From a virus: a stretch of 37,569 nucleotides of DNA. The notes below the pieces were generated by a model, which worked only from the letters and a program-made list of their open reading frames with translations, was not told the DNA's origin and did not search any database. The stretch is from IMG/VR virus record IMGVR_UViG_3300043256_000241, positions 1 to 37,569 of that record. One strand, written 5' to 3'. Shown piece by piece: positions 7,841 through 36,704 of the stretch. A program made the translations under genes and the position numbers. The stretch's first letter is position 1. Each line of letters opens with the position of its first letter.

Positions 7841-8035
7841 ATGGCTACTAAGCCCATCACAGTTCACGCAGCGTCACCTCATAGCACTGACCGGCAGCGG
7901 GAGGGCCTAGACCGGCTGGTGGGGTACCTGGCCAAGTCCCTTGTCCCTGGCGTCCTACTCCCCCCCACGGCCCGCATTGTCATTGAGTGGGGCGACGAGG
8001 ACGTACTGACTACACTACGGGCCACTGATGACTGA
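7841..8035 (+). CDS. Small hypothetical protein, 64 aa
   Basis: GTAGAGG lies just ahead of ATG 7841. The gene overlaps the terminase gene by 8 bases, so the two are co-translated. The sequence has an N-terminal helix (TDRQREGLDRLVGYLAKSLV) and a beta-rich acidic end (ARIVIEWGDEDVL). Its place before the large terminase would fit a small terminase subunit, but it is short and I see no DNA-binding fold, so I do not make that call. Confidence 0.65.
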   Translation: MATKPITVHAASPHSTDRQREGLDRLVGYLAKSLVPGVLLPPTARIVIEWGDEDVLTTLRATDD

Positions 8036-9515
8036 CCATGACCTAAGCCTGGAGGGCTTCACGCGGCGGTGGGCCGCAAACAGTCATCGCTATCACGGAG
8101 ACATTAAGCAGTTCCTTGCTGACCAGTGGATTATCCGTACGAGCGGGGAACTCATTGATCTTCAGCCTGATCACGCCGAGGTGCTGGACTGCTGGTTTAC
8201 GCGTGATGCGCGCGGTAAGTTTCCCTATTCAACGTATATCATGGGGGACATTAAGAAATCCGCCAAGACGGAACTGGGCGCAGCCGTGGGCCTCTGGTTC
8301 ATGCTCACTGAGCCTGGCCGCCCTGAAGGCTATGCCCTGGCTAACGACCTGGAGCAGGCGAACAGCCGGAGCTTTGGGGCCATCAACGAGGTCATAGAGG
8401 CCAACCCCTTGCTGAAGCGGAACCTGGTGGTGCGCCGCCACCCACGGCCTGCCATCGTGTTCCCTGACGGGGGTCACTTGGAGGCCCTGCCTCATGACTA
8501 CGCGGGGGAGGCCGGAGCGAACCAGGCCATCACCCTCTGGACGGAACTCTGGGCCTTCCATAGTGAGCGCTCGGAACGGCTCTGGGAGGAGTTCACCCCC
8601 GTCCCTACCCGCCTAAATAGCATACGCTGGGTAGATAGTTATGCGGGCTTCCGCGATGAATCCCTACTCCTCTGGAAGCTGTACGAGGCCACGGTGCTGA
8701 AGGGCCGTCGCGTCCATGGCACCCTCCCCATGTGGGAGGACGTGACCGGTACCATAGTTTGCTACTGGGGTACCACGCCCCATATGCCCTGGCAGACCCC
8801 CGCGTACTACGCGCAGCAGCGTGCCCAACTGCGCCCCCAGACGTTCGCTCGGCTCCACCAGAACAAGTGGGATACCTCTCGCTCCGCCTTCATTAAGGCT
8901 GATCAGTGGGATGCCCTCCGCAAGGTACCGGTCATCTGGCCCTGGAAACACCGGAGCCTGCCCGTGTACGCTACTGTGGACGCGGCCCATAAGCGTGACT
9001 CCCTGGCTGTAACCCTGGTAGGCTATCATTGGTTGCTGGGTCTCGTGCTCCTGGCCCACCGCATCTGGACGCCTACGGAGGATAACCCCGTCATTCCAGA
9101 GGATACGGCGGTGCCGTGGCTGGAGGCGCAGGAGCGCATGTGGAACCTGCGCAGCGTCCACTATGACCCTGCCCACTTTGAGACGGCGGGTTACCGGCTT
9201 CAGGAAGGCATGGGCCGCCGCGGTGTAGACATCGTGGAGTACACCCAGACCGGCGATAACCTCCTGCTCATGGGGAACCAACTGTACGACGCCATCCGCT
9301 TCTGTTGGCTATCCGTGTACGACCAGGCGGCTAGCGACTTGCGAGCGCACGTCATCAATGCGCGGGCCAAGGAATCCGAGCGGGGGTTTAGGTTGACACG
9401 TGGGAAGGCCACAGCTAAGATAGATGGAGCAATCGCTTTGGCCATGGGAGTAGTCGCCGCCCTGGAACGGGGGCCGCGTGACTGCCGACTAGCTAGGGGA
9501 CTTACCTTTATCTAA
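8028..9515 (+). CDS. terL: Terminase large subunit
   Basis: The protein is 495 aa: the ATP-driven DNA packaging motor and nuclease acting at the prohead portal. The N-terminal ATPase has a Walker A-like GDIKKSAKTE (73-82) and a Walker B-like LWTELWAF (170-177), both degenerate in the way phage terminases often are. The C-terminal RNase H-like nuclease shows acidic residues at D318 (ATVDAAHKRDSLAV), D324, D380 (HYDPAHFE) and D466 (AKIDGAIALAMG). The length is normal for the family. It starts within the previous gene and its stop overlaps the next start. Confidence 0.93.
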   Translation: MTDHDLSLEGFTRRWAANSHRYHGDIKQFLADQWIIRTSGELIDLQPDHAEVLDCWFTRDARGKFPYSTYIMGDIKKSAKTELGAAVGLWFMLTEPGRPEGYALANDLEQANSRSFGAINEVIEANPLLKRNLVVRRHPRPAIVFPDGGHLEALPHDYAGEAGANQAITLWTELWAFHSERSERLWEEFTPVPTRLNSIRWVDSYAGFRDESLLLWKLYEATVLKGRRVHGTLPMWEDVTGTIVCYWGTTPHMPWQTPAYYAQQRAQLRPQTFARLHQNKWDTSRSAFIKADQWDALRKVPVIWPWKHRSLPVYATVDAAHKRDSLAVTLVGYHWLLGLVLLAHRIWTPTEDNPVIPEDTAVPWLEAQERMWNLRSVHYDPAHFETAGYRLQEGMGRRGVDIVEYTQTGDNLLLMGNQLYDAIRFCWLSVYDQAASDLRAHVINARAKESERGFRLTRGKATAKIDGAIALAMGVVAALERGPRDCRLARGLTFI

Positions 9516-9781
9516 TGGTAACTGCTGACGAACTTGACGATGAATCCCGCCTGTTCCTTGACCTTATCAATGGCTCCATGGATGCCAAGTACGCGCGTCT
9601 GGCCAAGGTCATTGATCACCGGTTTCGTAGCCAGCGCCGCCGTCTCCTGGAATTGGAGCGGGCCATAGAGAACGTGCTTCCCCTGGTGACTGAGGTACGC
9701 GCCCTCCGTCGCGCCCTAGTCGCTGTACCCGCTATCCTCTCCGTGATGGCCGGTACAGCCAAGGTCATGGGGTGGGTGTAA
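9515..9781 (+). CDS. Coiled-coil protein with hydrophobic C-terminus, 88 aa
   Basis: The start overlaps the terminase stop (TAATG). Residues about 25-70 are a basic, heptad-like helix (FRSQRRRLLELERAIENVL) and the last about 18 (LVAVPAILSVMAGTAKVMGW) are hydrophobic. This layout recalls XhlA-type haemolysin/holin accessory proteins, but the position beside terminase is unusual for one. Function unknown. Confidence 0.6.
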   Translation: MVTADELDDESRLFLDLINGSMDAKYARLAKVIDHRFRSQRRRLLELERAIENVLPLVTEVRALRRALVAVPAILSVMAGTAKVMGWV

Positions 9782-10269
9782 TGAGATTGCTTATTTTGGT
9801 TTTATTTGTTGCCGCTGCAATTGCGGCTAAGCCTTCGCCGGAGCCGTTCACTGTCACCGAGCGATTCCATGATGTAAACCTAAACGGCTGTGTAGGCGAG
9901 GATGATCGGCTTAGGTGGAAGCTATCAGGAACTTTGGCCCCTGGGGAGTCGGTCACGTTCACGCCTGGGGAGACGTTGGTGCCTGAAGAAGGTATCCCCA
10001 TCTGTGACAGGTCGGGCCGTGGCTTAGCCGCGTTCGTCTCCTGGGCGAAACGAGGCGGGAAGAACGCGGGGCCTGTCAGCCAGTACCTAGAGTGGGGTGA
10101 CAACACCTATGAGGGCGTGGCGATATGTCAGAAGTTGCCCCGCCTTGACGGTAAGCAGTTCCCGACGCTGACGTTTACAAACGAAGGGATACGGCGGGTC
10201 TACAGTATCGAGGGTTGGGGTGAGATCGTGAACCGTTCTAGCCTTCAGTTTGTGGCGGGCTGCCCATGA
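9781..10269 (+). CDS. Secreted protein, 162 aa
   Basis: ATG 9781 overlaps the previous stop (TAATG). Residues 1-18 form a signal peptide (MRLLILVLFVAAAIAAKP) with a likely cleavage site after AIA. The mature part is beta-rich with four Cys (NGCVGE, PICDRS, AICQK, AGCP) that could form two disulfides. The first codons are AT-richer than the surroundings. I recognise no family. A secreted disulfide protein placed between terminase and DNA-processing genes suggests a host-interaction role, but this is inference. Confidence 0.7.
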   Translation: MRLLILVLFVAAAIAAKPSPEPFTVTERFHDVNLNGCVGEDDRLRWKLSGTLAPGESVTFTPGETLVPEEGIPICDRSGRGLAAFVSWAKRGGKNAGPVSQYLEWGDNTYEGVAICQKLPRLDGKQFPTLTFTNEGIRRVYSIEGWGEIVNRSSLQFVAGCP

Positions 10270-10288
10270 GTCATGGCTGGGCCATTAG

Positions 10289-10369
10289 ATGAACTTGTTA
10301 TTCGCCCTGGTTCTGTTCCTGGGAGTCCTAGCCCTGGCCGGTCTACTGCTGGAGGCGGGTAACTGGTGA
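10289..10369 (+). CDS. Single-pass membrane microprotein, 26 aa
   Basis: The frame encodes MNLLFALVLFLGVLALAGLL followed by LEAGNW, one membrane helix with a short polar end. Its stop overlaps the GTG of the next gene. The ribosome site is weak. An alternative 29-aa frame at 10273-10362 overlaps it and is less protein-like (Pro/Gly/Ser-rich). The hydrophobic pattern favours this one. Confidence 0.4.
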   Translation: MNLLFALVLFLGVLALAGLLLEAGNW

Positions 10370-10527
10370 CGAACTTTCACCTACGCCAGTACACCTGCGA
10401 CAAGTGCCTACGTACTACGGCCATTTGGGTGCCGTTACCTGCCCCTGAGCACATAAAGCTGGTGGGCGGTGGCTGCCGTAAGTGCCTGATGCCTGCCAAC
10501 AAGTTTACACGGAAGGGCAAGGCATGA
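10366..10527 (+). CDS. Small four-cysteine zinc-ribbon protein, 53 aa
   Basis: The start is GTG 10366, overlapping the upstream stop (GTGA). The pattern is C11-x2-C14 (YTCDKCLRT) and C37-x2-C40 (GGCRKCLMP), a complete zinc ribbon, with a basic tail (KFTRKGKA). Its stop overlaps the next ATG (10524). The intact four-Cys pattern and overlaps at both ends make it convincing despite its size. Confidence 0.65.
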   Translation: MTNFHLRQYTCDKCLRTTAIWVPLPAPEHIKLVGGGCRKCLMPANKFTRKGKA

Positions 10528-11093
10528 CCGCCCTAGTGGTAGGCTTCTACGCTGGCCCTGGTGCGGGCAAGAGCACCATGGCTGCTCATGTGTTCGCCCT
10601 CCTGAAGTGGGCGGGGATACGGGCCGAGCTAGTCACTGAGTTTGCAAAGGAAGTCTACTGGGAGCAACGCCCTATCCCTGACCCGTTTTACGTTATTGCT
10701 AAGCAATACCATCGCTTAGTCCGTGTAGTCCCCCACGTAGACGTAGTGGTGACTGATGCGCCTCTGCTCCTGGGCCTGGCCTATACTCGCCACCGAGAGC
10801 TACAGCGGGTCATAACCGACTACGCGACACGGTTTCATATGTTCCATATCTTCCTCCACCGTCGCAAGCCCTATGACCCTGTAGGCCGGTACCAGGCAGA
10901 GCCGGAGGCGGTAGCCCTAGACCGTACAGTAGAGAACATGCTGGAGGACTTGCACCTGACGTATGCTAGCTACCCCGCCCGCCCCTGGGCAGCTAACGAC
11001 ATCTACGAGGCGATAGTACGGAGGCTGCGCCATGACCAGCATGCTAGTCAAGATACTGTTCGCCACGCAGCCAGGTTGGAGCCCCATCCGTGA
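10524..11093 (+). CDS. P-loop ATPase/kinase-like protein, 189 aa
   Basis: ATG 10524 overlaps the preceding stop; the in-frame ATG at 10482 would add 14 unconserved-looking residues. The Walker A GPGAGKST is at residues 11-18, after a beta strand (ALVVGFYA). ELVTEFAKEVYWE and VVVTDAPLLLGLAYTR fit the phage AAA/nucleotide-kinase-like family found in many tailed phages, whose substrate is uncertain. The C-terminal tail (DQHASQDTVRHAARLEPHP) is encoded by the 18-bp near-palindrome and a 20-bp repeat, so the tail may be dictated by DNA sites rather than protein function. Confidence 0.8.
   Translation: MTALVVGFYAGPGAGKSTMAAHVFALLKWAGIRAELVTEFAKEVYWEQRPIPDPFYVIAKQYHRLVRVVPHVDVVVTDAPLLLGLAYTRHRELQRVITDYATRFHMFHIFLHRRKPYDPVGRYQAEPEAVALDRTVENMLEDLHLTYASYPARPWAANDIYEAIVRRLRHDQHASQDTVRHAARLEPHP
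11033..11050 (+). promoter_or_regulatory. 18-bp near-palindrome, copy 3 of 5
   Basis: TGACCAGCATGCTAGTCA lies inside the last 20 codons of the P-loop gene, 40 bases before the next start (11090). In frame it encodes part of HDQHASQ. A site kept exact within coding DNA suggests selection on the DNA itself. Confidence 0.75.
11056..11075 (+). repeat. 20-bp exact repeat R2, copy 1
   Basis: CTGTTCGCCACGCAGCCAGG is repeated exactly at 21627-21646. Here it lies 5 bases after near-palindrome copy 3, in coding DNA. The other copy is in an intergenic region 63 bases before near-palindrome copy 4. Confidence 0.8.
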
Positions 11094-11947
11094 AAATCAC
11101 TGAGAACAAGCCCCGCCGTGCCCAGCTATTCCAACAATTGTTGTCAGACCGGTTCAAGGGCGGTTGGCCCCACCAGCACGAGCTATGGCCGTGCGTGCGC
11201 CTGGGAGTTGCCCAACGGTTCCTGGGCGCGACGGGCATGAGCTTTGGCACCCGCAAGCGCGCCCTCTACTGGCTGCGCGGGCAGAGCGCCGAGGCCCTGA
11301 TAATCGGGGTGACCACCTCCCTGGTCAAGCATACGTTCGTCTATGAGGGTGTGATCGTGAGCCCTGACCGTTGGCTGGGTGAACCTGACCTGGCCTTTGA
11401 CGAAATCAAAAGCACGGCCCTAAGCTCCGCCCGTCTATGGCCCACTGTAAAGGCGGGAGAGGCAGCCCTGCTGAGCTTCAGCGATATTGCCATGCACTCG
11501 TACTATGAGCAGTGCGCCATCTACTGCGTGGCTACGGGTACCAGCAAGTGCGGGCTTATCATTTATTTCCTCCACGGGGACTACGCGGAGCGCCGTAAGA
11601 AATGCCCAGAGCCCTTGTGCGGTGGCACCCTCGGCCCGTTCCAGGAAGACGGCCTGTACAAGCAGTGCAACAATCGGAAGTGCCCAGCCGTGGCGGCCAG
11701 TGGCGAGCCCTACAAATCCTACTCCATGGACTTGCGTGCCTATGATCTGGAGTTCTCTGCCCGCGAGTTAGCCTGGTTCCATGAGGAAGTCTATGCGAAC
11801 CGCAAGGGCCAGTTTGCGGCGGGCATGCAGGCTAAGACGGCGGCGGGAATCCGCAAGGCAGCCAAGGGCACTAAGAACTTCTACTGCTCCGGCTGCGAGC
11901 CTGGCCGCCTCATTGAGTGTGAGAACTACAACACGGGGAGTGAGTAG
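11090..11947 (+). CDS. Cas4-like (RecB-family) nuclease with Cys clusters, 285 aa
   Basis: The start is GTG 11090, overlapping the previous stop. An early Cys (WPCVRLGVAQRFLG, C35), the nuclease signature around D93 and E105-I-K107 (AFDEIKSTA), a Q-x3-Y motif (Q141, Y145) and a C-terminal CSGCEPGRLIEC (C266, C269, C277) match the layout of Cas4/AddB-type [4Fe-4S] exonucleases. A second cluster, C172, C177, C193 and C198, between the nuclease motifs and the C-terminal Cys, looks like an inserted zinc ribbon and is unusual. Such enzymes trim DNA ends in recombination. No cas1 or CRISPR array is present, so a recombination role is more likely than adaptation. Confidence 0.8.
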   Translation: MKITENKPRRAQLFQQLLSDRFKGGWPHQHELWPCVRLGVAQRFLGATGMSFGTRKRALYWLRGQSAEALIIGVTTSLVKHTFVYEGVIVSPDRWLGEPDLAFDEIKSTALSSARLWPTVKAGEAALLSFSDIAMHSYYEQCAIYCVATGTSKCGLIIYFLHGDYAERRKKCPEPLCGGTLGPFQEDGLYKQCNNRKCPAVAASGEPYKSYSMDLRAYDLEFSARELAWFHEEVYANRKGQFAAGMQAKTAAGIRKAAKGTKNFYCSGCEPGRLIECENYNTGSE

Positions 11948-12132
11948 TGCACATGGGTAGTGAAGTTGGGGAGAACAAGTTGCATAAGCGCCCCGTCTGC
12001 ATCTACTGCCTCCAGGAAATAGGGCTGGGCGTACCCCGCCACTGGCATGGGTTGGGGGCCTACTCGCACCGTGAGTGCTACGAGGCTGCGGGCGAGCTTG
12101 CCCCCCAGCAGGACGCCAGGAGGCGGCCCTAG
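11947..12132 (+). CDS. Small zinc-finger-like protein, 61 aa
   Basis: GTG 11947 has GGGGAG upstream; ATG 11953 is an alternative. CIYCLQE followed by HWHG and HRECYEA gives a C-x2-C...H-x3-C zinc site. It lies between a Cas4-like nuclease and an Hjc-like resolvase and overlaps the next start, so it may assist DNA processing. Family not recognised. Confidence 0.65.
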   Translation: MHMGSEVGENKLHKRPVCIYCLQEIGLGVPRHWHGLGAYSHRECYEAAGELAPQQDARRRP

Positions 12133-12518
12133 TGCCTGACATGACCTGGAAGGCCGTAGAGCGCCGCATAGCTAAGCAGCTAGGGGGCCAGCGTAACCCG
12201 CTGTCAGGTATCCGCTCTGGCCATGGTACCCACGGTGACCTCCTCCACCCCACCCTGTACGGGGAGTTCAAGCACACTAAGCGGGCGGCTATTCTCAGTT
12301 TGCTACGCGCGACGGTGAAGCTGGCCAAGCGCGAGCGCAAGATACCCCTTGTAATCATGCACGAGAAGGGCACCCAGAACTACGCGGCAGTGCTTCCCTT
12401 TAGCGACTTCCTGACCATTTGGAACGCGCTACGGGAGGCGGGTGAGGTACTACGTGGGGGGACGCCTGGGCCTAATCAGCTAGGTAAGCGAATCCGCCAG
12501 ATAACAGGAGGCAAGTAG
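12132..12518 (+). CDS. Hjc/PD-(D/E)XK-type resolvase-like nuclease, 128 aa
   Basis: GTG 12132 has AGGAGG at 12119-12124 with a 7-base spacer; ATG 12141 is a weaker alternative. The motifs follow archaeal Hjc and related restriction-fold nucleases: an early Glu (KAVERRIAKQLGG, E10), HGDLLHP (D36) and GEFKHTK (E45-x-K47), then a beta strand (IPLVIMHEKG). The length suits the family. It would resolve branched DNA during replication, recombination or before packaging. It is coupled to the phosphoesterase that follows. Confidence 0.75.
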   Translation: MPDMTWKAVERRIAKQLGGQRNPLSGIRSGHGTHGDLLHPTLYGEFKHTKRAAILSLLRATVKLAKRERKIPLVIMHEKGTQNYAAVLPFSDFLTIWNALREAGEVLRGGTPGPNQLGKRIRQITGGK

Positions 12519-13423
12519 TGGAGCAACATGACCTGGCCATAGACTACTCCGGCCAGCACGAGGTACCCGCCCAGCAGCACCTAACGCTCGGCTTCATCGC
12601 TGACTTGCAATACGGCGCTGACGGCTGCGACCTGGACAAACTGGAGAAGTATATAGACCAGGCCATGGGTATGGAGCATATTCATATCTTGGGCGTAGGC
12701 GATTTGGTAGATCGGCATAGCCCCAGTAACCGTACGGGCATTATCATAGCCCGCCAGGCCCTATACGACAGTGCACGTAAGTCACTGGACGATGCTGGGG
12801 AAAAGGACTTGACCGACCTGAAGGAAATCCTGGCCCCTACCCGCGCTGCCTGCAAGGTATGTGGTAACCCCATCTGGCTGGGTATCCACGAGGGGCACCA
12901 CTTCTACCAGTTCTACGACGGTACCACCACGGATACGCGGATGGCAGAGTGGCTGGGCTGCCCGATGCTGGGGCATACGGCGGCTACCTTCCTGGACTTT
13001 GTGGACGCGCACAAGCACAAGGGTACGTTCCGCATCCTTAGCCGCCACGGCACGGGTGGGGCGAACAGTGAGGCCACCGTTATCCGTAAGCTGGAGGCGT
13101 TGGCTACTGACTTTGTGGCTGACCTCTACGTGACCGGCCACTATCACATGCGGTTCGCCTTTGACCGGCCCCGCATTGACTGGGTGGATACCACCCGCCA
13201 CCACACGATGATAGATCGCACGTACTTTATGGTTTCAGCGGGCAGCTACCTCCGTGGCTACGTGGTGGGCAACCGGCTGGAGGGCCGCCCCCAGGGTACC
13301 TATGTGGAACAGAAGGGCCTTCGCCCCCGCTCCCTCGGTGGGCTGTTCATCGACATACAGCCCTACCGTAACGGCGGCAGTAGCGGTAGGCTTCTGTTCA
13401 GGCAGACTCCGATATACCCCTAG
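12518..13423 (+). CDS. Calcineurin-like metallophosphoesterase (SbcD/Mre11-like)
   Basis: GTG 12518 overlaps the previous stop. The metal-site motifs appear in order: IADLQYG (D29), GVGDLVDRH (D62, D65), GIHEGHH (122-128, where the classical motif is GNHE), SRHG (175-178) and TGHYHMRF (207-213). The 301-aa length suits a single catalytic domain. With its nuclease neighbours it probably acts on DNA ends or branched DNA, although protein phosphatase or nucleotide hydrolase activity cannot be excluded. No SbcC-type ATPase is in the window. An internal CKVCGN adds another Cys pair. Confidence 0.82.
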   Translation: MEQHDLAIDYSGQHEVPAQQHLTLGFIADLQYGADGCDLDKLEKYIDQAMGMEHIHILGVGDLVDRHSPSNRTGIIIARQALYDSARKSLDDAGEKDLTDLKEILAPTRAACKVCGNPIWLGIHEGHHFYQFYDGTTTDTRMAEWLGCPMLGHTAATFLDFVDAHKHKGTFRILSRHGTGGANSEATVIRKLEALATDFVADLYVTGHYHMRFAFDRPRIDWVDTTRHHTMIDRTYFMVSAGSYLRGYVVGNRLEGRPQGTYVEQKGLRPRSLGGLFIDIQPYRNGGSSGRLLFRQTPIYP

Positions 13424-13432
13424 AGGTGCACA

Positions 13433-15103
13433 GTGAATAAGCTACTGAGCGCTCCCATACGGGCACTGACCACCCCCCTCCGGTGGCTGCGCCAGCGTAA
13501 CGTGCGTAGCCTGTCCAGCATCGTGAGTACCGTGCTGGGCCGTATGCGGGGGGCCGCTAACGTGGGGGCTCTGCATCGGGCTTACAAGGAAAACGAACTG
13601 GTCAATTCCGCTATTACGGAGACCGTGCGCGGCTTGATTCAGGTGCCCCAGATGGTGGAGCGATGGTCACCACGCAGCGAGCGGTGGGCCGTCCAGCCCT
13701 GGACTCACCCGCTCCAGCGCCTCCTGGACAAGCCTCACCCCGTCATGGATAAGGTGCGCCTACTTGACCGCTTCTGGACGGACGTGGCTGTGCTGGGTAA
13801 CGGCCTGCTCTGGAAGCAACGCAACGGGGCGGGGGACGTGATAGCCCTATGGCCCATAGATGCGGCTGCCGTAGTCATCAAGGCTGACACTGAGAAGATG
13901 ATAGAGGGGTACTACGTCTTTACGGATGGTTCCACCTTCGGCACTGGCACGGCGATGGCCGGAGCCCAGAAGCTCGTGGAGGACAAGCTAAACAAGCGGT
14001 TCGTCCGCTACCCACCAGAGGACGTGATACACCTGGCCCTGAGCCCTGACCCGATATTCCCCCTCTGGGGTCTATCCCCCATCGCCCCCACCCTCCCCAG
14101 CGTGGACGCTGATGAGGCTATCACTGCGTTCATCATCCGCTTTTTCCAGGTAGGGGCTGTCCCCGCCTACCTCTATGAGGCTGAACGGGAGCTAACGGAG
14201 GACGAAATAGCCCGCCTAAAGACGCAGTTTGAAAGCCAGCAGGGCGGCGCTGACAAAGCCTGGGGCTTGGCAGTGGTGGACAGGACACAAGGCAAGCTGA
14301 CCCGCATGGGCTTGGCTACAGGTAGCCGAGAGATTGGCCTGCATGAACTACGCATGGACATAGAGGCGCGTATCCTCGGCCCCTTGAACGTGCCCCCCAT
14401 CGTGGTGGGCGCGGTCATCGGTCTCACCCATGCGACGTACAGTAACTATAGCCAGGCCCGTAGCGCTCAGCATGAGGAGAACACGGCCCCCAACCTTGTG
14501 CGCCTGGACTCTGTGTTTACGTGGGGCCTAGCGGGGGAGTTCGGGGATGACCTTCGCATCCGCTCAGACACTAGCCGTGTCCTTGCCCTAGACGAGTTGC
14601 AGACTAGCCGCTCCGCCCGCGCTGTACGCAAGCTCCTAGCCGGTGGCATGAGCATCAACGAGTTCCGCGCTGCGGTTGACCTGCCTCCCGTGGAAGGTGG
14701 AGACATACTCCTGCTCCCTCTGAACGCTGAGCAGCTACCTATTCAGGTGCGGAGCGGCGCGGGCTACCCCCTCCCTCTGGGCAGCAACCGTATACAGCAG
14801 TTGGCCGAGGCCCTGGGGACGGGTGGTGCTGGTGCTGGCGTCATTGATCGCCAGGTGCAGGCTAGCATCCGTTATGCCTTCCAACTGCTGGACGGTAAGC
14901 CAGAGGAGCACGACTGGGCTAGGACGCGGGCGGGCGTGAAGCTGGCCCTAGCTGCCCTCCCCCAGCGCGTGGAGGGAGCGACGGCTACCCAGGATGCGCG
15001 GCGGCTGCTGATCGCGGCCCACATTCACACAGTACGCGGGGTTGCCCAGAAGCTCGGCATGCGGCCCCAGGACGTGTTCACCGAGTACGGGCAGCTTCCT
15101 TGA
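13433..15103 (+). CDS. HK97-type portal protein, 556 aa
   Basis: GTG 13433 is preceded by AGAGGTG. The protein forms the dodecameric ring at one capsid vertex through which terminase pumps DNA. Matching features are HRAYKENELVNSAITETVRG near residue 50, LLDRFWTDVAVLGNGLLWKQ, YPPEDVIHLALSPDP, the ARILGPLNVPPIVVGAVIGL stretch in the clip/stem region and NEFRAAVDLPPVEGGD late in the protein. The C-terminal about 100 residues are a helical extension. It is followed by the protease and capsid genes in standard order. Confidence 0.9.
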   Translation: MNKLLSAPIRALTTPLRWLRQRNVRSLSSIVSTVLGRMRGAANVGALHRAYKENELVNSAITETVRGLIQVPQMVERWSPRSERWAVQPWTHPLQRLLDKPHPVMDKVRLLDRFWTDVAVLGNGLLWKQRNGAGDVIALWPIDAAAVVIKADTEKMIEGYYVFTDGSTFGTGTAMAGAQKLVEDKLNKRFVRYPPEDVIHLALSPDPIFPLWGLSPIAPTLPSVDADEAITAFIIRFFQVGAVPAYLYEAERELTEDEIARLKTQFESQQGGADKAWGLAVVDRTQGKLTRMGLATGSREIGLHELRMDIEARILGPLNVPPIVVGAVIGLTHATYSNYSQARSAQHEENTAPNLVRLDSVFTWGLAGEFGDDLRIRSDTSRVLALDELQTSRSARAVRKLLAGGMSINEFRAAVDLPPVEGGDILLLPLNAEQLPIQVRSGAGYPLPLGSNRIQQLAEALGTGGAGAGVIDRQVQASIRYAFQLLDGKPEEHDWARTRAGVKLALAALPQRVEGATATQDARRLLIAAHIHTVRGVAQKLGMRPQDVFTEYGQLP

Positions 15104-32280: not shown

Positions 32281-32526
32281 ATGACTAAGCCCCTCCTCTG
32301 CCGCCTCGGTGTCCACCGCCCCTACAGGTGCCAATACGCGCCCAGCAAGGGGGCACTCCACTACTGCCAGCGCTGCTCTTGCATCTGGTATGCGGGCAAG
32401 GGAGAAGCCCGTCACACGTGCCACCGCCAGCTAGTAGCATACCACCCTACCCGACAGCGTAGACGGGCTGCCAGGCGCAGCCTAGTGCGTCTGCTGGCAC
32501 GTGGGGAGCGTATCCTCCGTGGTTAA
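32281..32526 (+). CDS. Small zinc-ribbon basic protein, 81 aa
   Basis: LLCRLGVHRPYRCQY, YCQRCSCIWY and RHTCHRQ give several Cys/His, and the last 25 residues are strongly basic (PTRQRRRAARRSLVRLLARG). It probably binds zinc and nucleic acid. The ribosome site is weak. It overlaps the methyltransferase gene by 8 bases. Confidence 0.65.
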   Translation: MTKPLLCRLGVHRPYRCQYAPSKGALHYCQRCSCIWYAGKGEARHTCHRQLVAYHPTRQRRRAARRSLVRLLARGERILRG

Positions 32527-33865
32527 GTACCCCGTCAAGGGCGTAGCTCTGCATCTGGGGGACTGTAGGGAGGTGCTTGCAGCTATGCGTCCTGCGTCCA
32601 TAGATGCCATCGTGACTGATCCGCCTTATGGCCTGAACTTCATGGGCAAGGACTGGGATAAGCCCCGCCCTGGGGAGGACTTTGTGGAGTATTTCCACGG
32701 CGGCGACTTCCAGCGCTGGACGTTCCTCTGGGCCAGGCAGGCCCTACGCGCCCTAAAGCCTGGGGGCCACATGCTGGTTATGGCGGGGACGCGCCTCTGG
32801 CATCGCACGGCCTGTGGAGTGGAGGATGCGGGGTTTGAGATTCGGGATACGCTCATGTGGCTCTATGGTACGGGCTTTCCCAAGTCCCTAGACGTGAGCA
32901 AGGCAATAGACAAAGCGGACGAGACACGTAAACCGGAACGGGAAGCCGTCGGGCGGTGGCTAAGGGAACAGCGTGAAGCTGCTGGACTTACCCAGAAATT
33001 CGTAGCTGCCTACTGGCCAAGTGCGACTGGCAGGTTGACTGGCTGCGTAGCGAATTGGGAGCTTGGCTTTAACTGCCCGACTTGGGAGCAGTGGGTACAA
33101 TTGCGGCGCATTATCGGCTTCGGGGGTGAAATGGACGCTGAAGTTTGGCGACTGAATGGCCGTAAGGGGGAGCCTAGTGCTGTTTGGGAGTCGGCAGAAG
33201 TGGTGGGCAAGTACCAGGGCGTAACACCAGGGCTACCAGGAAAGCGGTTCAGTGTACGGGATAACTTAATACGTGCCCCAGCAACCCCCGACGCCCACCA
33301 GTGGGAAGGCTGGGGTACGGCCCTAAAGCCAGCCTGGGAGCCCATCATCCTCTGCCGCAAGCCTCTGGAGGGCACTGTAGCGGCCAACGTCCAGGAGCAC
33401 GGCGTAGGGGGACTGAGCATAGATGCCTGTAGGATTGCCACAGACGAAAATACTAGCCGTCCCCCAAGCCCTAATCCCATTGACGTTTATGCCTATGGGG
33501 GCCAGAAATTGCACCTTGGTGGAAGGGGCCACTCTAAAGGCCGCTGGCCCGCCAACGTAGTCCTGGACGAAGATGCGGCGGCGCTGCTGGACGCGCAGAG
33601 CGGCGGGGCCTCCCGCTTTTTCTACTGCGCGAAAGCTAGCCGCAAGGAACGGGGGGAGGGCAATGATCATCCCACAGTGAAGCCCATCACCCTCATGCGC
33701 TGGCTCTGCCGCTTGGTAACCCCCCCCAAGGGCGTTATCCTTGACCCGTTCATAGGCAGCGGCACCATGGCCCTGGCCGCTCTTGCTGAGGGCTTCCGGT
33801 GCGTGGGCATAGATACTGACGAACACTACCTGGAAATAGCCCAGGAGCGTATCAGTCATGGCTAG
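32519..33865 (+). CDS. DNA methyltransferase (N6A/N4C, beta-type order) with inserted HTH-like segment, 448 aa
   Basis: GTG 32519 is preceded by GGGGAG; GTG 32501 is an in-frame alternative with no ribosome site. Catalytic motif IV TDPPYG is N-terminal (33-38), and the SAM-binding DPFIGSGT (409-416) and HPTVKP (384-389) are C-terminal, the beta-class circular order. Residues about 145-200 (GRWLREQREAAGLTQKFVAA ... VQLRRIIGF) resemble an XRE-type helix-turn-helix inserted between motifs; it may recognise DNA or regulate the enzyme. It would methylate phage DNA against host restriction. No cognate endonuclease gene was seen. Confidence 0.88.
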   Translation: MVKYPVKGVALHLGDCREVLAAMRPASIDAIVTDPPYGLNFMGKDWDKPRPGEDFVEYFHGGDFQRWTFLWARQALRALKPGGHMLVMAGTRLWHRTACGVEDAGFEIRDTLMWLYGTGFPKSLDVSKAIDKADETRKPEREAVGRWLREQREAAGLTQKFVAAYWPSATGRLTGCVANWELGFNCPTWEQWVQLRRIIGFGGEMDAEVWRLNGRKGEPSAVWESAEVVGKYQGVTPGLPGKRFSVRDNLIRAPATPDAHQWEGWGTALKPAWEPIILCRKPLEGTVAANVQEHGVGGLSIDACRIATDENTSRPPSPNPIDVYAYGGQKLHLGGRGHSKGRWPANVVLDEDAAALLDAQSGGASRFFYCAKASRKERGEGNDHPTVKPITLMRWLCRLVTPPKGVILDPFIGSGTMALAALAEGFRCVGIDTDEHYLEIAQERISHG

Positions 33866-34269: not shown

Positions 34270-34468
34270 GAGTTTCCTGCGTAAGCGTGCTATCGGCAAG
34301 GACTACCCCCTTACCGCTGGCGAGTACGAGGCGCTACGCCAAGTTGCTGCACTGGCCCGCATGGTATTCCTGTTGCGCGTCATCGCTAGCAGCACGGCGG
34401 GGGACACGTTCAACCCTCAGCTAGAGGAGCTAGCGGCACTAGAGCGGGAGCTAGAGGCGAATGACTGA
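34262..34468 (+). CDS. Small helical protein, 68 aa
   Basis: ATG 34262 has GGGGTGG upstream; GTG 34241 is the in-frame alternative. It is all helical (LTAGEYEALRQVAALARMVF, then LEELAALERELEAND) with a hydrophobic stretch, ARMVFLLRVI, reminiscent of the RAMVFLV stretch in the gene at 5176. Its stop overlaps the polymerase start. It may be a polymerase accessory, but that is only positional inference. Confidence 0.6.
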   Translation: MAESFLRKRAIGKDYPLTAGEYEALRQVAALARMVFLLRVIASSTAGDTFNPQLEELAALERELEAND

Positions 34469-36704
34469 GACCCGCGTGCCCCCCTCCGGCCCCAAGGACG
34501 CGGAACTGGCGTTTGTGGCCCAGAGCCCAGGCTACGAGGAAGGGGAAAAGGGCCGCCCCCTGGTAGGCCCAGCCGGTCAGGCCCTCCGCCGCATGGCCGC
34601 TGAGGTAGGGCTAGACCTCTCGGCCTGCTGGCTCACCAACATTTGTGATCGCGTGTTGCTGGGTAGCACTGCGCCCAAGGTGCGCGACCTGAAGGAAGGG
34701 GCCGCACGTATCCGCGCGGAACTAGCCGAATTGCCTAACTTGAAAGGCGTAGTTTTACTGGGAGCCTACGCCTCTAAGCTCGCGTTCAGCGCCCCCATTA
34801 GCGTCTGCCAGGGCCGCTCTGACCGCCTGTTCGCGGGGAGCCGCTATAAGAATGACGCGACGTGGGCCGAGGCCCGCGACAGCCAGTTAGCCAAGTATCG
34901 AGACGTGGGGATGCAGGAGGAGCACGTAGCCGAGGCCATAGCCGCCTGGGATGCCCGTGAGTCCGCCCCCAGCTTGTCCAGTACGGGGTACCCCGTCATA
35001 GCCTGCTGGCACCCATCTTATTGGCTCCGTCTGCGTGACAAGTTTCGCAAGCAGACCGTAGAGGCCGATATTAAGACGGTATTGGCCCTGGCCCCCCGTC
35101 TCAGCGAGCCTCCGACCCTCCCCGCCATCACCATGCCTAACGAGGTAGTGGTAACCGGCTTGGTGGGCCTGGACACTGAGACTGAGGACGTAGAGGGGCT
35201 ACGGGAGAAGATGGGCCTGAAGGGGAGCGATGGCCCAGACCCGCGCGCGCTCCGGTGCATCGCGGTGGGCCTCAGTACGGGGGAGTGCGTCACGCATCCT
35301 GGCCAGGTCACGTTCGCCCCCGACGCGGAGCCCGTGGCCCACAACCTCCCCTTTGACGCGGGGGCCGTTGACGATTGGACGCCCAATTGGCATGACTCCA
35401 AGATGCTGGCCCATCTGAGCGGGGAGCGCGACACTGTAATGAAGTCCCTGAGCCTCCGGCTCCTGGGCAAGCCCATGGTCAAGTTTGAGGACGTGGTGAA
35501 GGGCACCCCAGAGTTTTACCAGTATTGCGTCAATGACTCGCAATCGCACCTGGAAATCTACCAGGAACTCCGGCGACGGGCGAGCGTAGGCACCCTCTGG
35601 CTCTATGACAATGTGGAGCAGCCCATGCTACGCATCTACGCGCGCTGGAGTATGCAGGGCGTGTTCACCCTTGACCGGAAACGGGCTGCTGCCCTGGCTG
35701 AGAAGTGGGATAGCGAACTAGAGGCAGAGGGGGACGCCTTAAAGCGGTTCCTGGGCGTGGACAGCCTCCAGAGCAACCCCCAGCTACAGAAGGTTACCGG
35801 CCTGAAGTCCGTAGCCGAGGCCGAGCGGATGAAGTACCTAGATAACCCCAAGGTAGCCGCCCTCCACCAGTACCGGACAGGTTCCAGGGCGAAATATTTG
35901 TCTACCTACCTGCTACCCTGGCTGAAATGGCCTTGGCCACGCATCGGCACCCTCTGGCGGCCTACGGGGGCCTGGACGGGCCGCCCCAGCAGCAAGACGC
36001 TAAACCTCCAGAATATCCCCACCGATCTGGCTGACCTGCTGGGGGAAGAGGAGGGCTACGTGCTCCTAGCCCCAGACTACGCGCAACTGGAGGCGCGCAT
36101 CATCGCTCACCTATCGCAGGATGCCAACCTTCTGGACGTGTTCAGCCGAGGCGTGGACGTGCTGGAATGGGTGCAGGGGCTCATAGGTATGCCAGGCCCC
36201 GAATACCGTCGCTGGGCTAAGGTGCTGTTCTACGGCACCGTCTACGGGGGGGAGGAGCAAGGGCTTAGCATGCAAGCAGCCCGCTTCGGCCTGGCCCCGA
36301 CGCGCAAGCTCGTGCAGCAGCTAAAGGAACTCCAAGCTACTGTAAAGGCGGCCCTACCAGGCGTCTTGGAGTGGTGCAACCGTGTCCAGGACTTAGACCA
36401 GGTGCCAGGGCTGTTCGGGCGCACGCATCATGTCCCACCGCACCCTGATCAGGGGCACCGGAGACGGGAGGCCCGCGCAGCACCGCCCCAGGGTGGGGGT
36501 AGCGATGCTACCAAGCTGGCCACCATCGCCCTGGAGAAGGCGGGGTTTAACACTCGCCACCAGATACATGACTCCGTACTTATCAAGCTCCCAGTAGCGG
36601 AAGACACCCCAGACACCCGACATGCCATAGCCGAGGTCATGGAGGGTGTAGCGGCCCTCTCAGTGCCTCTGAAGGTAGACGTGAAGCTCTGGGGGGAGGG
36701 GTAG
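34461..36704 (+). CDS. Family A DNA polymerase fused to a UDG-like domain, 747 aa
   Basis: Residues about 10-210 resemble family 4 uracil-DNA glycosylases: VAQSPGYEEGEKGRPLVGPA (19-38) and CWHPSYWLR (182-190). The usual GEAPG reads AQSPG, so Glu is replaced by Gln21 and activity is doubtful. A 3'-5' exonuclease follows: DTE (238-240), HNLPFDAG (294-301) and YQYCVNDS (D359). The polymerase domain has motif A LAPDYAQLEARII (536-548), motif B RRWAKVLFYGTVYGG (583-597) and motif C QIHDSVLI (701-708), where most family members have HDE. SPO1-type phage polymerases have, to my recollection, a comparable glycosylase-like N-terminus. It is the main replicative polymerase of the phage. Confidence 0.9.
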   Translation: MTETRVPPSGPKDAELAFVAQSPGYEEGEKGRPLVGPAGQALRRMAAEVGLDLSACWLTNICDRVLLGSTAPKVRDLKEGAARIRAELAELPNLKGVVLLGAYASKLAFSAPISVCQGRSDRLFAGSRYKNDATWAEARDSQLAKYRDVGMQEEHVAEAIAAWDARESAPSLSSTGYPVIACWHPSYWLRLRDKFRKQTVEADIKTVLALAPRLSEPPTLPAITMPNEVVVTGLVGLDTETEDVEGLREKMGLKGSDGPDPRALRCIAVGLSTGECVTHPGQVTFAPDAEPVAHNLPFDAGAVDDWTPNWHDSKMLAHLSGERDTVMKSLSLRLLGKPMVKFEDVVKGTPEFYQYCVNDSQSHLEIYQELRRRASVGTLWLYDNVEQPMLRIYARWSMQGVFTLDRKRAAALAEKWDSELEAEGDALKRFLGVDSLQSNPQLQKVTGLKSVAEAERMKYLDNPKVAALHQYRTGSRAKYLSTYLLPWLKWPWPRIGTLWRPTGAWTGRPSSKTLNLQNIPTDLADLLGEEEGYVLLAPDYAQLEARIIAHLSQDANLLDVFSRGVDVLEWVQGLIGMPGPEYRRWAKVLFYGTVYGGEEQGLSMQAARFGLAPTRKLVQQLKELQATVKAALPGVLEWCNRVQDLDQVPGLFGRTHHVPPHPDQGHRRREARAAPPQGGGSDATKLATIALEKAGFNTRHQIHDSVLIKLPVAEDTPDTRHAIAEVMEGVAALSVPLKVDVKLWGEG

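Follow-up and report, generated by a model that had tools for sequence, protein, structure and literature searches.

In phage T4, the resolvase gp49 (endonuclease VII) is bound to the portal gp20 and frees packaging when Y or X junctions have brought it to a halt (PMC9958956), and packaging HNH endonucleases adjoin the terminase, as summarised in PMC5304195 with reference to Kala et al. 2014. Extra genes between terminase and portal have been published for Microbacterium phages (PMC7302621), and jumbo myoviruses commonly encode SbcCD together with various resolvases (PMC7824862). A further family of interest is phrog_7339, annotated as 'DNA repair exonuclease': these calcineurin-like metallophosphoesterases (MPEs) have members in MTATph1, KLEB27-3, EL753P1, Slash, Jenst and Geobacillus phages, where their genes often lie beside terminase or portal.

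Here we analyse a block of six genes located between the large terminase (TerL) and the portal of a 37.6 kb IMG/VR virus record with a G+C content of 61%, the whole of which we refer to as the window. What the block would have in common with T4 gp49 is its proposed job, the removal of junctions that stall packaging: the folds are unrelated as judged by sequence, and the role in T4 is experimental, whereas that in the window is proposed from gene position. With the packaging HNH endonucleases, as they are described in the citing paper, the window shares a nuclease gene adjoining the packaging genes, but here PD-(D/E)XK and MPE enzymes are predicted and an HNH is lacking. Since jumbo myoviruses encode SbcCD and resolvases, the parts of the block are already known, and the new element is their grouping between TerL and portal; no earlier report of this cassette was found in the literature searched, which largely comprised papers available without subscription.

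Results

The original prediction of a coupled DNA-processing cassette at 10366-13423 was right in both its coordinates and its coupling: start/stop overlaps join all six genes (ATGA between ZR1 and the P-loop gene, then GTGA and three times TAGTG; Table 1), a shared AGGAGG site precedes the MPE gene and the portal start lies 10 bases past the MPE stop. Because their stop and start codons overlap, the six ORFs are almost surely translated together. The portal is followed in the window by a protease and then the capsid gene, and no Rfam RNA was found within the window. The Walker A region of TerL (8028-9515) reads KKSAKT, compared with the usual GKS/T form.

Table 1. Genes of the TerL-portal interval of the window and the evidence for their assignment.
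Feature	Coordinates	Strand	Evidence
TerL, left flank	8028..9515	+	phrog_9 E=1e-30
g9515, small conserved protein after TerL	9515..9781	+	69% aa identity to L001 1194-1472
g9772, hydrophobic signal-like N-terminus	9772..10269	+	no family match; no L001 homologue
ZR1, 53-aa zinc-ribbon-like protein, CxxC...CxxC	10366..10527	+	66% aa identity to L001 1463-1648
P-loop, nucleotide-kinase-like	10524..11093	+	Walker A GPGAGKS; AAA_28, phrog_2107
Cas4-like, predicted PD-(D/E)XK exonuclease of lambda-exo/YqaJ-Cas4 type	11090..11947	+	motifs
Zn2, 61-aa zinc-finger-like protein, CxxC...HxxC	11947..12132	+	34% aa identity to L001, motif retained
Hjc-like, Hjc-type Holliday junction resolvase	12132..12518	+	phrog_2002 / phrog_244
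MPE, calcineurin-like metallophosphoesterase, 'GHH' clade	12518..13423	+	phrog_7339, tree, motifs, fold
Portal, right flank	13433..15103	+	PF04860 E=1.6e-36; 81% aa identity to L001

In order to place the block in an evolutionary context, we compared it with L001, a diverged relative that covers the region from TerL to the neck genes and exhibits 82% aa identity in TerL (of which part is present). Five of the six block genes are found there in the order of the window (TerL-g9515-ZR1-exonuclease-Zn2-Hjc-MPE-portal), with all four cysteine residues of ZR1 preserved, whilst no L001 homologue was found for the P-loop gene or for g9772, the latter reading as cargo rather than core. Synonymous divergence between window and L001 is strong (pS 0.49-0.70), and dN/dS values are low for the exonuclease (0.13), MPE (0.16), Hjc-like (0.26) and ZR1 (0.31) genes, compared with those of portal (0.13) and TerL (0.10); Zn2, at 0.49, shows looser constraint and is fast evolving. 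As the three nucleases are under purifying selection similar to that of portal and TerL, and as the core is retained in L001 in the same order and place, the core is, judging by these comparisons, an old and selected part of this phage lineage. A recent random insertion absent from all relatives, the outcome set against the original prediction, is hence ruled out. The search for this gene order in other phages was successful as far as L001, but the Cas4-like gene together with the Hjc-like gene was seen in no other virus: in pattern scans of viral contigs the pair co-occurred only in window and L001, and scans with exonuclease, resolvase and portal patterns recovered L001 alone. Among the partial contigs of TerL relatives (L004-L018), homologues of exonuclease, resolvase and MPE were not detected in any, on which basis a block common to all TerL relatives was rejected. 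Only two phages, related to each other, are known to carry the complete set.

The Cas4-like protein displays the motifs V-S-P-D93...D-E105-I-K107, followed by Y-Y-E-Q141...A-T-G150. An arrangement of SPD...ExK and then Q...TG is the pattern of lambda exonuclease and YqaJ; with Cas4 (AddB-type) the window protein also has a C + CxxC...C layout in common, in which C35 and C266/C269/C277 are invariant across the window, L001 and a candidate homologue in L002. One N-terminal and three C-terminal cysteines fit the layout of iron-sulphur nucleases of the Cas4/AddB type. The protein differs in carrying an extra zinc-ribbon-like insertion (C172/C177/C194/C199, of which C194 is not preserved in L001 as aligned), in matching no profile and in being encoded beside neither annealase nor Cas genes. 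The nuclease motifs are conserved in L001, and the motif pattern, which was composed after inspection of the sequence, turned up in 57 of 200,000 shuffled sequences; among 636 ORFs no other unrelated one contained it. Alignment to L002 6579-7415 was weak (hhalign P=0.006), a Marinitoga YqaJ lined up the motif at a level that is not significant (P=0.27), and a scan of viral contigs with the L002 nuclease pattern found only L002 itself. Searches of Pfam, PHROGs, NCBIfam, PADLOC and PDB sequences gave no match: the Cas_Cas4 and PDDEXK_1 profiles were unmatched at E up to 1 (for the L001 homologue up to 5 in Pfam), the sole profile match was a chance one to IBR, and the PDB sequence searches returned chance matches only. 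AlphaFold, working from an alignment of only two sequences, gave no usable fold (pLDDT 34). The proposed 'Cas4-like nuclease' is hence borne out in its motifs and cysteine layout but not by any library profile, which makes the label looser than claimed: by motif it is a fair lead, not demonstrated membership.

The Hjc-like resolvase of the original prediction is well supported by its sequence. The protein matches phrog_2002 / phrog_244 (E about 1e-5), shares 72% aa identity with its L001 counterpart and exhibits the E of WKxxER, SGHxT..D and YxExK; its start is at 12132, not at the 12075 of the longest ORF. Its closest phage relatives are the gut-phage proteins of BS162P1 and MT835482 (38-45% identity), which also possess the catalytic residues: the E, D and ExK residues are invariant across the four proteins and the size is about 130 aa, as expected for an Hjc-type nuclease with an intact catalytic motif. 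Motif order (E...D...ExK) and size are those of archaeal-type Hjc and phrog_2002, to which similarity is nevertheless low and from which the window protein differs in a short D-to-ExK spacing of 9 residues. In Bacteroides phage BS162P1 (L028 5314-6318), an I-HmuI-like HNH segment precedes the Hjc-like domain and is fused to it, an arrangement that looks like the invasion of a resolvase gene by a homing gene.

The P-loop protein was expected to be an ATPase of the cassette; the P-loop itself stands, but core membership does not, with the gene absent from L001 and of nucleotide-kinase type. Both a Walker A motif and a kinase-family profile, the marks of (d)NMP kinase-like proteins, are present (AAA_28 E=2.3e-6; phrog_2107 'thymidylate kinase' E=3.6e-10), such that it looks like a nucleotide kinase resembling phage thymidylate or nucleoside kinases. 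On these profiles a nucleotide-kinase type is preferred to a recombination ATPase, and by its distribution the gene is an optional passenger.

The MPE is a distant relative of phrog_7339 (E=1.3e-11) with 79% aa identity to L001 and 41% to L002, and displays the motifs D29-x-Q31, G61-D62-x-x-D65, G126-H-H, H177-G and G207-H-x-H210. In the MPE tree the window falls within a well-supported clade of ten rows, in which every row has GHH in place of GNH(D/E) and every row except L039 has DxQ in place of DxH. This clade thereby differs from the phrog_7339 MPEs, which belong to the same fold family but retain DxH and GNH(D/E) and were not seen with the Cas4-like and Hjc-like companions found in the window. 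Against the five motifs of SbcD/Mre11 (DxH, GDxxD, GNHD, H, GHxH), DxQ and GHH replace DxH and GNHD, within an AlphaFold model that has the MPE fold (pLDDT 74, pTM 0.77). Foldseek matched this model to many MPEs across the superfamily (Vps29, LpxH, PolD DP1, Mre11) without a clear choice, TM-scores by query length being highest for PolD DP1 (0.45-0.49) and about 0.37 for Mre11. The modelled fold thus appears to be real with an altered metal site, and the fold matches leave a nuclease role plausible without singling it out. Concerning the predicted 'SbcD-like phosphoesterase', the modelled MPE fold was upheld but no special closeness to SbcD emerged, which makes this label, too, looser than claimed; no SbcC/Rad50 partner was recognised among the scanned genes or the ORF list of the window, which is possibly incomplete.

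The order TerL-MPE-portal is also present in MTATph1, KLEB27-3 and EL753P1, the MPE being separated from each of its two flanking genes by no more than one other gene, and in MaeS, Slash/Staley, Jenst, PK5.1, CBP1 and L019 the distance between MPE and TerL is 1.0-2.5 kb. In MCV2, vir520, vir249, L002, L020-23 and L025 the distance is at least 9.6 kb; the GHH-clade MPEs of L002, L020-23 and L025 are 16-30 kb from TerL. Overall, of 16 sampled records or contig groups, 10 have the MPE no more than 3.1 kb from TerL (random expectation 2.6, P=2e-5), where the 3.1-kb threshold was chosen post hoc and two search proteins were selected with their position already known. When related phages are merged, 6 of 12 remain near TerL (P about 0.01), or 5 of 11 with the window excluded (P=0.03), a modest signal that may serve as a lead, not as proof. 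At least three changes of position are required by the MPE tree. Nucleases or resolvases neighbour several of the relatives: a PDDEXK_1 nuclease in L039 (E=1.5e-24), the candidate Cas4-like nuclease in L002, a phrog_2139 exonuclease and a RuvC-type resolvase in L020 and a resolvase in vir520. A scan of genomes with the MPE returned one archaeal contig. In L019 (5804-7691) TerL is apparently split into two overlapping frames with ATPase and nuclease parts, either by a frameshift or as separate genes. At 34461-36704 of the window, a fusion joins a uracil-DNA glycosylase (UDG) domain and a family A DNA polymerase (PF03167 + PF00476), and a homologue lies directly upstream of the MPE in L025 (6110-8734); in L039 a separate UDG-like gene (4127-4762) abuts the MPE.

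The place of the block had been described as normally reserved for head genes. Its location between TerL and portal is correct, but 'reserved' is too strong, as other cargo is found there in TerL relatives: an endolysin or transglycosylase can directly follow TerL, or a methyltransferase can lie further on. In the window (9515-13433) and in L006-L008, L013 and L014 the stretch after TerL holds the nuclease block or else a gene for an endolysin, a transglycosylase or a methyltransferase, and it seems from these gene contents to be a variable cargo site of this terminase lineage. Elsewhere in the window (32501-33865), an N6/N4 DNA methyltransferase carries a long insertion inside its catalytic domain, with the PF01555 match spanning 34-449.

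Discussion

We give about an even chance to the reading that the block core serves phage recombination and the processing of DNA ends as one module, that it is translated together with the packaging genes, and that it most likely debranches and trims concatemers. Its members would be the two small zinc-binding-like proteins, the PD-(D/E)XK exonuclease, the Hjc-type resolvase and the MPE nuclease. In late replication such a module could strip branches and trim concatemer ends, the exonuclease and MPE acting on ends, Hjc on junctions and the zinc proteins as putative DNA-binding helpers, so that linear duplex DNA reaches terminase and portal; recombination would then be a second face of this activity. 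That the block trims and resolves intermediates for packaging, as first suggested, is plausible, and gains support because the MPE recurs near TerL and because the portal-bound resolvase of T4 provides a precedent.

Nearly as good an account is an ordinary recombination or replication-repair module that has come to reside after TerL where cargo is tolerated; its substrates would be replication intermediates or DNA breaks, and nothing would tie it specifically to packaging. We regard this as a serious possibility at somewhat below even chance. The unrelated cargo of the TerL relatives and the genes published at this site in other phages (PMC7302621) both suggest that position may be permissive, and the MPE relatives of L002 and L039 lie together with Sak4-like and ERCC4-like genes (in L039 also with UDG) in what, from sequence, appear to be recombination modules, that of L002 being far from TerL. 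What argues for a link to packaging is that the MPE is repeatedly close to TerL in several separate clades and that the position is long conserved in window and L001.

The remaining explanations concern the chemistry or the target of the enzymes. The altered metal ligands of the clade (DxQ, GHH), the indecisive Foldseek matches and the nucleotide-kinase-like P-loop gene in the same block would suit an MPE that acts as a phosphodiesterase for nucleotides or RNA ends, with a place in nucleotide metabolism alongside the P-loop protein and with DNA left to the exonuclease-resolvase pair only; yet the P-loop gene is absent from L001, nucleases and resolvases neighbour the MPE relatives, and the best TM-scores include PolD DP1, a 3'-5' exonuclease, so that we consider this improbable. 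Nucleases can also serve anti-defence or the degradation of host DNA. An anti-defence role was raised in the original prediction and found no positive support: PADLOC models gave no credible match for the six block proteins (the only one was Csn2 at E=0.079), the block showed neither a small inhibitor-like nor a membrane partner, and its late-gene position and coupling to the portal also speak against an anti-defence or host-DNA-degrading nuclease set, which we deem highly improbable.

Returning to the packaging module, a broader and rather doubtful extension is that MPEs of the GHH clade and of phrog_7339 serve many tailed viruses as packaging accessory nucleases, the counterpart of packaging HNH endonucleases and T4 gp49, and that in this phage they form one machine at the terminase-portal junction together with the Hjc-type resolvase and an iron-sulphur exonuclease. 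Phage DNA needs debranching before or during packaging, and the responsible enzymes are known from a few models such as T4 gp49. If the proposal is true, the block would offer a compact gene set, and the recurrent MPE a marker, for testing how terminases handle branched concatemers.
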